A stretch of DNA of 12,576 bases from DATKZS01 sp035527835 [NCBI: bacterium] (GTDB taxonomy: Bacteria; RBG-13-61-14), in the NCBI GenBank assembly GCA_035527835.1, contig DATKZS010000039.1:1-12576 (forward strand), in the 5' to 3' direction. Positions 1-12,576 of the stretch are shown here, piece by piece. The notes beneath the pieces are model-generated. The model was not told where the DNA came from, did not search any database, and saw only the letters and a program-made list of their open reading frames with translations. Made by a program: the position numbers and the translations under genes. How positions within the stretch are numbered: the stretch's first letter is position 1; each line of letters starts with the position of its first letter.

Positions 1-131
1 GCTTGGCGAACCGGCCGACGGGAGCGCCAAGCCAGAAACATTCGCACCCAAGCCCTCTTAAAATCGTGTTGAAAAATAATCCTTGGCGCTCTTGGCGTCT
101 TGGCGGTTCTCCGGTCCGTTTATTTTGGACA
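1..131. repeat. Right half of a palindromic intergenic repeat element (copy 1)
   Basis: Bases 1-77 match 12500-12576 as a direct repeat with 73 of 77 identical. They include an inner hairpin with arms GCTTGGCG and CGCCAAGC. Bases 79-108 (three CTTGGCG-type units) are the reverse complement of 12402-12431 with one mismatch, and TATTTTGGACA at 121-131 is the exact reverse complement of 12380-12390. I infer that a complete element is about 250 bp, with TGTCCAAAATA at both termini, a three-unit arm inside each end, and a core of about 150 bp. Only the right half lies here, cut by the window edge. No protein is encoded in it. Bases 132-247 between this element and the transposase leader hold no gene I recognise. 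Confidence 0.75.
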
Positions 132-5840: not shown

Positions 5841-5947
5841 CGCAACCGGATGAAAGAATGAATGAACAAGGATATGCAGGATATTCAGGATAAAAAATCT
5901 TATCCTTGACATCCTGAATATCCTTGTTAATGAATTCTTTGGTTGCG
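5841..5947. repeat. Long imperfect palindrome with AGGAT triple-unit arms
   Basis: The left arm from 5841 (CGCAACC) and the right arm ending at 5947 (GGTTGCG) pair over about 50 bases with few interruptions: AAAGAAT near 5853 with ATTCTTT near 5934, then ACAAGGATAT with ATATCCTTGT, CAGGAT with ATCCTG, and AGGATAA (5887-5893) with TTATCCT (5900-5906) around a 6-base loop. AGGAT recurs in the left arm at 5869, 5878 and 5887, exactly 9 bases apart. It has no coding content. It separates dnaK from dnaJ and would form a large RNA hairpin or DNA cruciform. It is most likely a dispersed intergenic repeat, possibly a miniature mobile element. Confidence 0.7.
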
Positions 5948-5998: not shown

Positions 5999-7099
5999 GT
6001 GGCGAAAAAAGATTATTACGAGGTGCTGGGCGTGCCCAGAAACGCATCGCCCGAGGAAGTGAAAAAGGCCTACCGCCAGGCCGCCCTCAAGCACCACCCC
6101 GACCGCAACCCCGACGACCCCGCCGCCGAGGAAAGGTTCAAGGAATGCACCGAGGCCTACCAGGTGGTCTCCGACCCGGAAAAGCGCGCCCGCTACGACC
6201 GCTACGGCCATGACGCCCCCGGCGGATTCGGCTTCACCGACTTCGACTTCCACAACCTCGACGACGTCTTCGGCGATCTCTTGGGCGGACTCTTCGGCGC
6301 CCGCCGCGGCTCCGGCCGCCGCCGCGGAGTGGACCTGCGCTACGACCTCAAAATCTCCTTCATGGAAGCTTACCGGGGCTTCGAGAAGACCATCAATGTA
6401 CCCCGCAGCGTCACCTGCTCCGTCTGCTCCGGCAGCGGCTCCAAGCCCGGGACCTCACCCGCTGTCTGCCCCGCCTGCAACGGACAGGGACAGGTCCGGA
6501 TGCAGCAGGGCTTCTTTTCCATCTCCCGCACCTGCCACCGCTGCGGCGGGGCCGGCAAGGTGATCATCACCCCCTGCGAAAAGTGCCGCGGCAGCGGGCT
6601 CATGGAGGAGGAGAGGAAGCTGAGCGTCAAGGTCCCGCCCGGAATTGACAGCGGCCAGCGCATCCGTTACCGCGGAGAGGGCGAGGCCGGCGAGAGCGGC
6701 GGCACCCCCGGCGACCTCTACATCGTGGTCACGGTGGAGGATCACCCGATCTTCATCCGCGAGGGCCGCGACCTCCTGGTCGAGCTGCCCATCAGCTTCC
6801 CCCAGGCCGCGCTGGGAGACGAGGTCGAGGTCCCTACTCCGGAAGGACCGGCCAAGATCAAGATCCCATCCGGCACCCAGTCCGGAAAGATCTTCCGCCT
6901 CCGCGGCAAGGGCATGCCCTCCCTCGACGGCAACCACAACGGCGACCTCCACGTCCGCGCCTTTGTCGAGGTCCCCGCCAAGCTCACCAAGGAGCAGGAG
7001 AACCTGCTCAAGCATTTCGCCGAGATCTCCGGCCTTGACATCATGCCCCAGAAAAAATCCTTCCTCCAAAAAGTCAGAGACGTCTTCGAGAACAACTGA
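5999..7099 (+). CDS. dnaJ: Co-chaperone DnaJ (Hsp40, type I)
   Basis: DnaJ delivers substrates to DnaK and stimulates its ATPase. The start is GTG 5999, with AAGGAG at 5982-5987; the encoded [12 protein letters not shown] is the standard DnaJ beginning. The protein has 366 residues, close to the family norm. It has a J domain with HPD at 33-35, a short Gly/Phe segment (GGFGF, then GGLFG), and the zinc domain with all four CxxCxGxG repeats ([32 protein letters not shown]). The C-terminal substrate domains follow ([20 protein letters not shown]). All key residues are present. It lies 283 bp downstream of dnaK, across two hairpins, so it may be expressed partly independently, although I see no convincing promoter in the gap. 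Confidence 0.98.
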
Positions 7100-7116
7100 G
7101 CCATAATTATTTATTA

Positions 7117-7252
7117 TAACCGCGGAGACGCAGAGAACGCAGAGCAATTTTTATTATTATCAATGTTCGGACGGGATCTTGGGACTGGCATGGCCAGGGA
7201 ATACTGAACATAAAAAATTAATTCCTCTGCGTTCTCTGCGTCTCCGCGGTTA
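7117..7252. repeat. 136-bp palindromic element with 28-bp perfect terminal inverted repeats
   Basis: Bases 7117-7144 and 7225-7252 are perfect inverted copies of 28 bases. Each arm contains three CGCnnAG units (CGCGGAGA 7121, CGCAGAGA 7129, CGCAGAG 7138), spaced 8 then 9. The inside also pairs: AATTTTT near 7146 with AAAAATT near 7213, ATGTTC with GAACAT, and CTGGC-ATG-GCCAG at the centre. No protein is encoded. It lies between the dnaJ stop and the transporter gene. It has the form of a miniature inverted-repeat element or a very large transcription/processing hairpin. Confidence 0.8.
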
Positions 7253-7316
7253 AATCCCTTCTCCATTTGCATTGCCCCCGCTTTGCCGTGATGATAAGCG
7301 CCGGGAGGAGAGGGGA

Positions 7317-8504
7317 GTGCTGATCAGGAAGACGCTGCCTTACGCCCTGGCCCAGTTTTGCATGGTGGCGTTCCAGTGGGCGGCGATGATTTACATGCCC
7401 GTGTTCTTCCAGGAGCGGGGCGTGTCGGACGCCGGCATCGGCACCCTGATCTCGCTCTTTTCCCTGTCCACCCTGGTGCTGATCTTTCCCATGGGCGTGC
7501 TCTCGGACCGCGTCGCCCCGCGCCCCCTCATGCTGATCGGCGCGCTCTTGGCCGTGGCCGCGAGCATGCTCATGCCCATCTGCCGCGGGTTCTATCAGAT
7601 GGCGCTGATCATGGCGCTGGCCGGCGCCGCCTTCACCTTTTCCTCGATTTCCCTGTATTCGCTTTTTTTCAAGCAGGTGGGCGAGAGGCGGGGCGCGGAG
7701 GTCTCGATCTTTACCATCGGCGGGATCATGGGCGCGGGCGCGGGCGCGTGGATCTGCGGCAGCCTGATGCAGTTGGTCTCGGTGGAGCGGGCGCTGTTCC
7801 CGGCCTCGGCCGGGTTCGCGCTGGGCTGGGCCCTGGTCGCCCTGTTTCTGCCCCGCGGCCAGGGCATCGCTTTTCCCATTCTCGAGTACGGCCAGGACCT
7901 GAAGCGGCTGCGCACCTGGGTGCTGATCGCCATCATGTTCGTGACCGCGTCGCACTCCGGGTTCGAGCAGGCCGGCTATACCCTGCTTCAGACCGACGTC
8001 ATCGGGCTTTCCACCAAGACGGTGGGCGACCTGTTCCTGATCATCGCCGTCTGGATGACCCTGACCACGATCTGGACCGGACGCATGCACGACCAAGAGG
8101 AGCGGCCGCTCCTGATGATGGGACTTGCTCTCATCCTCTCCGGCGCCTTCATGGCCGCCTCCGGGTCGGCCCGCGGCGCGCTCGACTTCCTGGCCTACCG
8201 CCTGCTCCACACCGCCGGCGACTCCGTGTTCCTGCTCCTCACCCTGGTCGTCGCCGCCATGATCTTCCCCAAGCGCCGCGTCGGAGGCGCCTTCGCCTTC
8301 GGACTCACCATCAACACCGCGTCCTATTTCCTCTTCGCCAACGTCGCCGGCCTGATCGGACAGCAGGCCGGCTTCCGCGCCGCCTTCCACGTCTCCGGCC
8401 TGATCGAGGTCATCGGCGGCATCCTGCTCCTGATGTTCCGCTCGCGCCTTCGGGGACTGTTCAAGATCAGTCCGGTAGAGGAAGCTATCTTGGAGAAAGA
8501 TTAA
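7317..8504 (+). CDS. Major facilitator superfamily (MFS) transporter
   Basis: This is a secondary transporter of the inner membrane; its substrate cannot be assigned from the sequence. I chose GTG 7317 because GGAGG (7304-7308) lies 8 bp upstream; the in-frame TTG further upstream would add a charged stretch with no function. The protein has 395 residues, a usual MFS length, with about twelve hydrophobic segments starting at residue 8. MFS motif A is visible between helices 2 and 3 as GVLSDRVAPRP (60-70). A polar central loop around QGIAFPILEYGQDLKRLR separates the two halves. Several helices are rich in Gly/Ala/Met. It stands between two palindromic repeats, and its stop codon TAA (8502-8504) coincides with the start of the second. 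It may be a stand-alone gene; no dedicated promoter is obvious, and read-through from dnaJ would have to cross the 7117-7252 palindrome. Confidence 0.88.
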   Translation: MLIRKTLPYALAQFCMVAFQWAAMIYMPVFFQERGVSDAGIGTLISLFSLSTLVLIFPMGVLSDRVAPRPLMLIGALLAVAASMLMPICRGFYQMALIMALAGAAFTFSSISLYSLFFKQVGERRGAEVSIFTIGGIMGAGAGAWICGSLMQLVSVERALFPASAGFALGWALVALFLPRGQGIAFPILEYGQDLKRLRTWVLIAIMFVTASHSGFEQAGYTLLQTDVIGLSTKTVGDLFLIIAVWMTLTTIWTGRMHDQEERPLLMMGLALILSGAFMAASGSARGALDFLAYRLLHTAGDSVFLLLTLVVAAMIFPKRRVGGAFAFGLTINTASYFLFANVAGLIGQQAGFRAAFHVSGLIEVIGGILLLMFRSRLRGLFKISPVEEAILEKD

Positions 8505-8576
8505 CCGCCAAGACGCCAAGACCGCCAAGAATTTATTTTTATAATAATTATTCTTGGCGGTCTTGGCGTCTTGGCG
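8503..8576. repeat. Palindromic element with CGCCAAGA triple-unit arms between convergent genes
   Basis: Bases 8506-8532 and 8550-8576 are perfect inverted copies (27 bp) around a 17-base AT-rich loop. The left arm holds CGCCAAGA units at 8506, 8514 and 8523. The leading AACC (8503-8506) matches the AACC that precedes the units at 7118 and 12402. It starts inside the stop codon of the transporter and ends 12 bp before the stop of the minus-strand phosphatidyltransferase gene. It could block both transcripts, although no T-run follows either side of the stem. The same unit type forms the arms of the repeats at the two window ends. Confidence 0.8.
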
Positions 8577-8588
8577 TTCACTCTTCGC

Positions 8589-10100
8589 CTATTGGAGTGA
8601 TGGCGGCAGATCGGAAAGGTAGAGCTTCCGGGTCTCGCCGTCCACCAGGGCGATGACTCCGTTGCTCACGGCGAGGTCGCGGCAATTCCAGCGGGGCGCG
8701 GCGATTTTCGCGGTGATCCCGGTGCGGATGTAATTGTCGTCGAGGGCGGAGTCGAGGTCAATGGCGTAGATCAGGTCGCGCCAAAGCGACGAGTTCATCT
8801 CGAAGGCGGCGTGTCCGTCGGAGGCGATGCCGCGCGAGAAGCCGCCGTTTCGGTACCACCCCATGATCGCCCCCTGCGCCGTGCCGCTCTCGAAGGCCTT
8901 TTTATAATCCACCAGGATGGTCTGGTGCAGGTTCATGTACTCGGACACCAGCATGGCGCGCTTGCCGCCGCTCTCCACGATGGCGCAGCCCACCGGGGCG
9001 TTCAAGGTGGTATCAAAGCTCTGGTCCAGGGCCGCAATCCCGCTCTTCAGGCTCTCGTCCACGTCAATCTCGAACACGTAGCGGGAGAAGCGGTCGGCGA
9101 TGTAGAGGCGGCCGTCGCCGGCGCAGGCGCCGTGGTCGCGGTGCAGGGCCCAGGGCACGCGGAACCGGCCGCGCAGCGCCAAGCCGCGGTCCAGGTAATA
9201 GACGCGGGTGAAGCGGTTTAACGGGTTGTAGGCGGTGACGAGCCATCCGTCCTTCCAGGCGGTCAGCGCGCGCGGCCGCTCCTTCACCTCCAGGAAGGGC
9301 AGGGGGGACTCCTTCCATTGGGGCCGCACATTCGCCCGCTCGGCCATGGAGATGACCTGGGTATAGGCCCCGATAAAGGCGAGCAGCAGGACCACCATTC
9401 CCGGTATGATCACGTTGAGCGACGGCCAGAAGCGGGCCGGGCTGCCGCCGTGGGCCCGGAGCTCCTGGTCCCGGGCCTGGTGCACCGGGAAATCGTATTT
9501 CCAGTAGATGCCGGTCTTGAGGCGCAAAAAGCTCTGGGCCACGCTCACGGTCATGATGATGCTGAACAGGGGAATGAGAACGGGCGCGAGGTTGATCCGG
9601 GTGAACGCCCACAGCGCATAGATCCCGTAGAGGATGTACTTGCTGCGGAAGATGTACTGCATGGGTATGCCCTGAGCGTTCTGGATCACGCTGAAGGTGA
9701 TCATGATGAGGTAGATCATGATGTAGTACGCGCCGATCTGGCCGTCCACCATGCGGTATTGAATAAACCCCAGCGCCATCACCACCATGCCGAGCTGGTC
9801 CACCACGATGTCCGTGAACGCCCCCGACTGGCTCGGCCGGTTGAGGTAGCGCGCGTAGGCCCCGTCGAGCCCGTCAACCGCCACGTAGAGCACCAGCATG
9901 AAAACCGTGCGGAAGGGGTGGGCCATGAACCAGATCACCACGCCGGTGAGCATGGCCAGCCCCGCGTAAGAGATGGCGTCGGGATGAACGTGGAGACGGG
10001 CCAGCGCCGGGCCGAACGACCCGAACACCCGGTTTTTCAGATTGGCGGCGTCATTCACCGCGCCCCGCTCCGAATCCGTGAAATAATTAAAAAACGACAT
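8589..10100 (-). CDS. CDP-alcohol phosphatidyltransferase fused to a predicted extracytoplasmic propeller-like domain
   Basis: The N-terminal part is a membrane CDP-alcohol phosphatidyltransferase, a family that moves a phosphatidyl or similar group from a CDP-alcohol to an acceptor alcohol in phospholipid synthesis. The full motif D-x2-DG-x2-AR-x8-G-x3-D-x3-D is present: D76, D79, G80, A83, R84, G93, D97, D101. About six hydrophobic segments lie between residues 43 and 193. A basic loop (194-227) and a seventh segment (228-250) follow, and then about 250 soluble residues. These have recurring short units such as GRLYIADRFSRYVFEIDV, RDLIYAIDLDS and GVIALVDGETRKLYLSDLP, resembling blades of a beta-propeller. 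Classical members are about 170-250 residues; this one has 503. With the N-terminus in the cytoplasm, the seventh segment would put the added domain outside. The acceptor is unknown. The start is ATG 10100 with GGGGAAG upstream. Confidence 0.85.
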   Translation of the reverse strand: MSFFNYFTDSERGAVNDAANLKNRVFGSFGPALARLHVHPDAISYAGLAMLTGVVIWFMAHPFRTVFMLVLYVAVDGLDGAYARYLNRPSQSGAFTDIVVDQLGMVVMALGFIQYRMVDGQIGAYYIMIYLIMITFSVIQNAQGIPMQYIFRSKYILYGIYALWAFTRINLAPVLIPLFSIIMTVSVAQSFLRLKTGIYWKYDFPVHQARDQELRAHGGSPARFWPSLNVIIPGMVVLLLAFIGAYTQVISMAERANVRPQWKESPLPFLEVKERPRALTAWKDGWLVTAYNPLNRFTRVYYLDRGLALRGRFRVPWALHRDHGACAGDGRLYIADRFSRYVFEIDVDESLKSGIAALDQSFDTTLNAPVGCAIVESGGKRAMLVSEYMNLHQTILVDYKKAFESGTAQGAIMGWYRNGGFSRGIASDGHAAFEMNSSLWRDLIYAIDLDSALDDNYIRTGITAKIAAPRWNCRDLAVSNGVIALVDGETRKLYLSDLPPSLQ

Positions 10101-12379: not shown

Positions 12380-12576
12380 TGTCCAAAATAGGCCGTAAGA
12401 AAACCGCCAGGACGCCAAGAGCGCCAAGGATCGCCAAGTAAATCATGATGTTCCTTTGCGGCCCAGCAAAGAACGGCTCCGGAGCGTCGGCCCCAACCGG
12501 CTTGGCGGACCGGCCGACGGGAGCGCCAAGCAAGAAACATTCGCACCCAAGCTCTCTTAAAATCGTGTTTAAAAAT
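12380..12576. repeat. Left half of the palindromic intergenic repeat element (copy 2)
   Basis: It begins with TGTCCAAAATA (12380-12390), the reverse complement of 121-131. The arm at 12402-12431 has units CGCCAGGA, CGCCAAGAG and CGCCAAGGA at 12405, 12413 and 12422, plus a further CGCCAAG at 12432. The core has hairpins: TTTGC/GCAAA around 12452-12471, and GCTTGGCG at 12500 with CGCCAAGC near 12525. Bases 12500-12576 repeat 1-77 with four differences. The element runs off the window end. Confidence 0.75.

Follow-up and report, generated by a model that had tools for sequence, protein, structure and literature searches.

Results

Palindromes in the window

The window, that is, the whole stretch of 12,576 nucleotides that was analysed, contains a broken DDE transposase, hrcA, grpE, dnaK, dnaJ, an MFS gene, a CDP-alcohol phosphatidyltransferase gene, tRNA-Gln, tRNA-Glu, and a class I Glu/Gln-tRNA synthetase gene that is probably glnS. 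Its DnaJ is only 45–53% identical to the DnaJ of the 12 Verrucomicrobiota genomes searched. The transposase (324–1383; DDE_Tnp_1_4) is degenerate, with two open pieces in different frames that match profile positions 18–194 (under the curated cut-off) and 318–433 of 435. Apart from it, no candidate partner for the repeats described below was found among the window proteins scanned.

The arm pattern AACCGCNNAGNCGCNNAGNNCGCNNAG was matched against the window with at most one mismatch, using 200 dinucleotide shuffles as control. Five arms were obtained, at 82–108 (minus strand), 7118–7144 (plus), 7225–7251 (minus), 8503–8529 (plus), and 12402–12428 (plus, one mismatch). The shuffles gave zero matches, which excludes chance as the source of the window arms. 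These matches include the arms at 7118, 8503, and 12402, which a preliminary description of this DNA had read as AACC followed by three CGCnnAG units.

Palindrome 1 lies between dnaJ (ending at 7099) and the MFS gene (starting at about 7317). Its left arm (7118–7144, plus strand) consists of AACC and the units CGCGGAG, CGCAGAG, and CGCAGAG, separated by linkers of one and two bases; an 80-base loop (7145–7224) follows, and the right arm (7225–7251, minus strand) is identical to the left one at 27 of 27 positions. Palindrome 2 has the MFS gene on one side and the convergent CDP-alcohol gene on the other. Its left arm (8503–8529, plus strand) starts within the last two bases of the MFS ORF (7272–8504) and contains AACC and three copies of CGCCAAG; the right arm (8553–8578, minus strand) contains AA and three copies of CGCCAAG, and is one C short, reading AACGCC instead of AACCGCC. 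When folded as DNA, the palindromes at 7118 and 8503 gave z = -12.2 and z = -14.2, respectively. The 7118 and 8503 arms showed exactly the seven differences previously listed for them, six of them in nn and one in a linker. The statement that the opposite arm carries the matching changes held for palindrome 1 as a whole and for the three units of palindrome 2, with the missing C of the 8503 partner as an exception. Two heptamer spellings occur within the window, 1.4 kb apart, and most simply the two palindromes represent two coexisting subfamilies, rather than a single element altered in place.

The arm of a third element (12402–12428, plus strand) contains CGCCAGG, CGCCAAG, and CGCCAAG, with an extra CGCCAAG at 12432; as described before, it differs from the 8503 arm at an A of the first unit plus one linker letter. 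No partner arm was found between it and the contig end. Downstream of this arm, a 77-base stretch (12500–12576, plus strand) containing GCTTGGCG..CGCCAAGC is present again at 1–77 with 95% identity, and the arm next to it at 82–108 (minus strand), which matches the 12402 arm, carries three copies of CGCCAAG. Since the 77-base repeat is common to both ends of the window, the break of the contig most likely fell within copies of a single repeated element. Probably, then, the contig starts and ends inside copies of the same element, the partner of the 12402 arm lies beyond the contig end, and the 82–108 arm belongs, as right arm, to a different copy of the third element.

A palindrome of a second kind, different from the CRCNNAG one, is found in the dnaK–dnaJ gap (5853–5940), with 41-base arms that are 83% complementary (DNA fold z = -8.0) and AGGATATTC-like repeats. 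An Rfam search of positions 6900–8800 returned 13 matches, all of them under the gathering score, and those falling on the palindromes corresponded to hairpin-like microRNA families.

Distribution and copy number of the family

Viral contigs scanned for AACC plus three CGCnnAG units yielded 68 stretches with 96 arms. In these viral loci, which had been picked by one arm only, neighboring arms at most 250 bases apart had AACC outward in 9 of 9 pairs. Genome contigs were scanned with the whole palindrome as pattern, leaving R, nn, and the linkers free, and at least 119 stretches holding 121 palindromes were obtained, from 84 genome labels (grouped by hand). According to the record titles of these stretches, many of which are metagenome bins, the palindromes are spread over about ten phylum-level groups. 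From their genera we take these to be Acidobacteriota, Myxococcota, Verrucomicrobiota, Planctomycetota, Chloroflexota, Bacillota (Pelosinus and Sporomusa), Bacteroidota, Cyanobacteria, Pseudomonadota, and Armatimonadota, among others. Strict arms were counted in eight genomes: Sorangium So ce26 (160), Pelosinus JBW45 (197), Spirosoma telluris (34), Lacipirellula (26), Sporomusa ovata (52), Chryseolinea (19), Desmonostoc (163), and Thiohalocapsa (62); the reversed-pattern control gave no arms in any of the eight. Further copies, for which the preliminary description had proposed a search, therefore exist under at least 84 genome labels, with up to 197 strict arms per genome. The distribution is patchy: among Verrucomicrobiota 33 of 288 genomes have arms, and among cyanobacteria 34 of 194 (the arm-bearing centre genome being counted in each case). 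Searches of plasmid and phage collections by blastn, with one palindrome each, gave no match. At 2102–2167 of locus L096, close to a contig end, there is a perfect palindrome with flanks and loop included, possibly an assembly artefact.

These results established that the window arms are members of a widespread, apparently mobile family of short interspersed palindromes, MITE/REP-like and built of the heptamer CRCNNAG. Dispersed palindromic repeats are a known kind of element; what sets this family apart is its word dialects and free linkers.

The heptamer word and its linkers

The composition of the word was analyzed in 113 distinct palindromes, for which R, nn, and the linkers had been left unfixed by the search pattern and whose columns are therefore fairly comparable. 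The family word is C-A/G-C-n-n-A-G, nn being mostly AG, GA, CA, AA, GG, or TA. The units of one arm agreed in nn in 53–61% of comparisons, versus 18% in shuffles (shuffle maximum, 28%). Of 188 arms, 75 had the same nn in all three units; of 113 palindromes, 29 had the same nn in all six. The proposal that a code makes nn change together across units and arms was thus borne out as a tendency in many groups and not as a strict rule; among the readings considered, recognition unit by unit fits this coherence best.

Linkers behaved differently from units. When the mismatch between the two arms of an element was divided by the mismatch between elements, the R and nn columns gave ratios of 0.13–0.52, linker 1 a ratio of 0.70, and linker 2 ratios of 1.06 and 1.13 for its two letters. 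With one palindrome for each of the 84 genome labels, the values were 0.15–0.51 for the units, 0.75 for linker 1, and 1.06 and 1.11 for linker 2. Within genomes, differences between arms were compared in all Verrucomicrobiota genomes having at least five arms among the arms listed (13 of 119 for G025, for example), and they were lower in the unit columns (0.02–0.36) than in linker 2 (0.15–0.75) in 12 of 12 genomes (120 arms), with a wide gap in G025, G033, and G109 and a small one in G212, G273, and G295. A linker 2 that is free between arms while the units are alike argues against gene conversion, slippage, or simple inheritance of the palindrome as the cause of coherence, and in favor of heptamers that are read separately; coherence is thus a property of the word more than of the tract.

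This bears on the active homogenisation that had been suggested as an origin of the pattern, by which conversion, slippage of tandem units, or hairpin-templated repair would keep units and arms alike with no reader protein. Amplified subfamilies do retain their linkers (TA in Sporomusa, mostly GA in Pelosinus, GG and GA in Sorangium), and one Pelosinus subfamily has a fixed positional difference, CAC/CGC/CAC, both of which point to simple copying of a master. Besides, three- and four-unit variants coexist in one Sorangium subfamily, indicating that units are gained or lost, and linker lengths are mostly mirrored between arms. All this would agree with homogenisation. However, conversion or slippage would carry the linkers along with the units, which is contradicted by the linker 2 ratios above 1 and by the greater variation of linker 2 in all 12 genomes, so that we consider homogenisation of the tract improbable.

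Unit spacing was more variable than the 8/9 rule previously put forward. Forms with 8/8 and 9/9 spacing were both plentiful among the viral-contig matches listed, so that 8/9 is not a rule, although the patterns for these forms accept either purine in each CRC and the counts are not like for like with those of the 8/9 pattern. In 615 distinct arms, a sample shaped by the search patterns, linker lengths (1,2), (2,2), and (1,1) dominated and (2,1) never occurred. Setting aside the 130 of 164 palindromes favored by the 8/9 pattern, lengths were mostly equal between arms: (1,1) in both arms in 13 cases, (2,2) in both in 10, and mixed in 11. Mirroring of nn in the second arm, as had been claimed, was weak by position. 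In the 63 palindromes with mixed nn in the left arm, the right arm matched the same unit at 0.492 and other units at 0.423, and 212 of 5000 permutations did as well. Mirrored linker lengths, together with same-unit matching slightly above cross-unit matching, suggest that palindrome inheritance or base pairing plays some part.

Base pairing is central to another explanation, in which the palindromes act as RNA or single-stranded DNA structures, such as transcribed hairpins affecting mRNA stability or termination, with arms that stay complementary because pairing is selected for. The strong predicted folds of the window palindromes and the mirrored linker lengths are in line with it, as is the intergenic location: 42 of 44 arms in 400 kb of Pelosinus lay outside predicted ORFs (rough ORF calls), and Sporomusa copies, whose conserved flanks are different ones, often come directly after terminator-like sequences, as judged by eye. 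Yet pairing does not require units 1, 2, and 3 to be the same, and they are alike; same-unit matching barely exceeds cross-unit matching; and differences between arms of the G/A type had no strand preference, unlike what G-U wobble would leave (136 concordant versus 135 discordant pairs in 137 palindromes). Strand-specific RNA wobble was accordingly discarded, and this explanation appears unlikely, although the palindromes may have some role in RNA.

Dialects within and between genomes

Among the arms listed, many genomes have one dominant spelling: CGCCAAG in several Verrucomicrobiota, and CACAGAG, CACAAAG, or CGCGAAG in different cyanobacteria. Sorangium has two dialects, CGCCAAG and CACAGAG, which are not mixed, and the two types of Pelosinus are also kept separate, with unit matches of 0.818 within arms versus 0.412 between arms (44 arms). 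Orthologous sites were compared in a 20-kb region common to four Pelosinus genomes, by reading the alignments by eye. At eight JBW45 sites, the related Pelosinus genome G020 carries an element in the corresponding position, in some cases a worn one. The type was kept at four and different at the other four, being CACAAAG versus CGCGAAG at three sites and involving CGCAGAG at one. At shared sites the loops differ and one flank junction is often kept; a difference in type may reflect either a new insertion replacing an old one or a change in place. Some sites are empty in other Pelosinus species (for example, 763065 and 766507 in G013), the empty sites being imprecise.

Ends, insertion, and orientation

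Sorangium So ce26 contains 63 palindromes, mostly from two homogeneous subfamilies, in which the core lies within an element of about 150 bp. Twenty of the 63 were fetched, and 18 of them belonged to the two main subfamilies; 17 of these 18 occupied copies had CTAG, a possible target-site duplication, at both ends and lay in unrelated flanks, and the remaining one had CTAG at neither end. The elements are therefore MITE-like in being short and non-coding, in having inverted repeats, and in occurring as multiple near-identical copies in unrelated flanks, as seen in Sorangium; Sporomusa copies have flanks in common.

Orientation was analyzed in Pelosinus JBW45, assuming from gene orientation an origin near position 0. 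Of 87 NAAG-type arms, 46 of 50 on the left replichore were on the minus strand and 33 of 37 on the right replichore on the plus strand, so that 79 of 87 fit a replichore-dependent orientation; none was located at 1.64–3.27 Mb, roughly the terminus third of the chromosome. Fork and gene direction were compared at 52 sites, in which all eight discordant ones were deliberately included and ORF calls were rough. Flanking genes were mostly co-directional with the fork, and where they were opposed to it (four sites) three of four arms still obeyed the fork rule. The orientation bias of this one subfamily suggests, on small numbers, insertion via a single-stranded lagging-strand template.

Smaller palindromes were observed nested in arms or loops, TGCCGC..GCGGCA in Pelosinus and GCTCGCCGAAGCTTTAGCGAAGG in Chryseolinea, indicating that CRCNNAG elements are themselves targets for other repeats.

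Search for a partner gene

The preliminary description had proposed to look for a gene that always accompanies the arms, and none was found, either as an accompanying gene or as a reader protein, in the searches for Y1_Tnp, Uma2, and autonomous copies. Y1_Tnp was present in 17 of 19 arm-bearing genomes and absent from both Sorangium genomes. Thirty Y1 loci were fetched out of 104 Y1_Tnp matches in the 19 genomes; none of them had an arm within 1.5 kb at up to three mismatches, and at four mismatches two arm matches were detected versus three for the reversed control. In JBW45, outside these 30 loci, a stop-containing Y1 transposase fragment (G002:C1:699241-699399) begins 3 bases outside an arm. 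In large cyanobacteria, Y1_Tnp occurred in 25 of 25 arm-rich and 26 of 29 arm-free genomes, with a median of 6 versus 3 copies. Its absence from Sorangium and the lack of arms at the 30 fetched loci led us to reject Y1_Tnp as a universal mobiliser.

The same data bear on the idea that the family belongs with the REP/REPIN elements, as a branch so far unrecognised, and is moved by Y1 (RAYT-like) transposases. It would account for the paired inverted repeats between genes and for the Pelosinus replichore bias, which is kept at three of four sites with genes against the fork, and it agrees with the presence of Y1_Tnp in most arm-bearing genomes, the higher Y1 copy number of arm-rich cyanobacteria, and the JBW45 fragment next to an arm. 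Against it, the ends have no GTAG/CGTC tag, Sorangium has no Y1_Tnp, none of the 30 loci carries an arm, and presence of Y1_Tnp fails to separate arm-rich from arm-free cyanobacteria. We therefore regard such a branch as an unlikely identity for the family.

Uma2 reached at least 35 copies in 25 of 25 arm-rich versus 18 of 29 arm-free cyanobacteria of similar size (at most 52 matches being listed per genome). None of the four Pelosinus genomes carries it; among Verrucomicrobiota, it was missing in 13 of 18 arm-bearing genomes and present in 5 of 25 arm-free ones. Uma2 thus fails as a universal partner, and its absence from Pelosinus and most arm-bearing Verrucomicrobiota indicates that the cyanobacterial association is probably one of lineage.

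Six outward arm pairs were found 0.3–3.5 kb apart. The three short ones, about 362 bases long, share their arms and appear to be a single arrangement in repeated copies; in the three longer ones no ORF-bearing autonomous copy was recognised, and their ORFs were phage-like by eye. No transposase between matching arms was recognised in the loci examined, where ORFs were judged by eye. No long element with paired ends emerged from 97 matches to Sorangium ends; the CGCCAAG subfamily has two end forms, and the pattern used fits one of them.

Discussion

Open full-text literature was searched for the arm sequences and for related repeat families, subscription papers falling mostly outside its scope, and no description of a CRCNNAG element was found, in agreement with the initial impression that no described element follows this rule. 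REP and REPIN elements are short intergenic palindromes of high copy number, often in inverted pairs and with several families per genome. The CRCNNAG family resembles them in these features of copy number, size, location, and pairing, and differs in its ends, AACC/GGTT (fixed by the construction of the search) instead of GTAG or CGTC, the four outer flank positions favoring A/T, T, T, and G, not GTAG. It also differs in arms made of tandem heptamers and in the absence of a linked tyrosine transposase in the 30 Y1 loci. With MITEs it shares a length of 70–300 bp, lack of coding capacity, inverted repeats, and amplified lineage-specific subfamilies, such as the Sorangium elements, which are about 150 bp long and have CTAG on either side. 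Unlike MITEs, it has a core common to many phyla with lineage-specific outer flanks and uses a repeated word with dialects as the building block of its arms, and no parent insertion sequence was found in the loci examined. In PMC3733652, several MITEs are named (Nezha, RUP, NEMIS, and others), GTAG- or CGTC-tagged repeats are also reported in Cyanobacteria and Planctomycetes, and untagged families are mentioned whose relations and binding proteins are given as unknown. As far as our searches go, these tagged repeats are the nearest description in the literature and the CRCNNAG family has no name.

In the iterons of plasmid origins, short direct repeats have a common sequence because every copy binds one subunit of a protein. 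CRCNNAG elements differ from them in being dispersed palindromes, and no linked Rep gene was seen in the window. Small dispersed repeats of cyanobacteria (Elhai, 2008) are reportedly tiny, mobile, nested in other repeats, located near heptameric repeats, and confined to a cyanobacterial subgroup; the CRCNNAG family may overlap with them.

DNA uptake sequences consist of one short word with genome-wide dialects, often placed as inverted pairs between genes. By analogy, CRCNNAG could be a genome-wide recognition word for uptake or chromosome organisation, the palindromes being a by-product. Genome-dominant dialects and paired inverted copies between genes are what this predicts, but the patchy spread across groups, the two dialects of single genomes, and the precise, mobile-element-like ends in Sorangium speak against it. 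Moreover, CRCNNAG words, unlike uptake sequences, stand in tandem rows within discrete palindromes. Of all the explanations weighed, we find this one the hardest to believe.

The reading we prefer, with roughly even chances of being correct, is that of a pan-bacterial MITE/REP-like palindrome family with one main dialect per element, in which each heptamer is contacted separately by a candidate DNA-binding protein. We infer that this protein is dialect-specific. An arm consists of AACC and about three copies of CRCNNAG, one or two bases apart, in a mostly intergenic position where this was checked, and each element, and often each genome, uses one main spelling of the heptamer. As reader we envisage a transposase, an accessory protein of it, or a host factor recruited for this use, identical subunits of which would bind in a row; with one subunit per heptamer, all six words would have to match a single specificity while the linkers stay free. 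A shift in the specificity of the reader would drag all the words along, and insertion may proceed through a single-stranded lagging-strand template, as the Pelosinus orientation suggests. A broader proposal, more tentative, is that one previously undescribed protein family reads rows of CRCNNAG in intergenic palindromes across many phyla, its specificity drifting while the words co-evolve with it by element and then by genome, with the linkers remaining free.

The family occurs in about ten phylum-level groups, with up to 197 strict arms per genome, and yet the searches made found neither a name nor a mobiliser for it. If each word is indeed read separately, its dialects would constitute a natural experiment in DNA-binding specificity and in how hundreds of sites change together.
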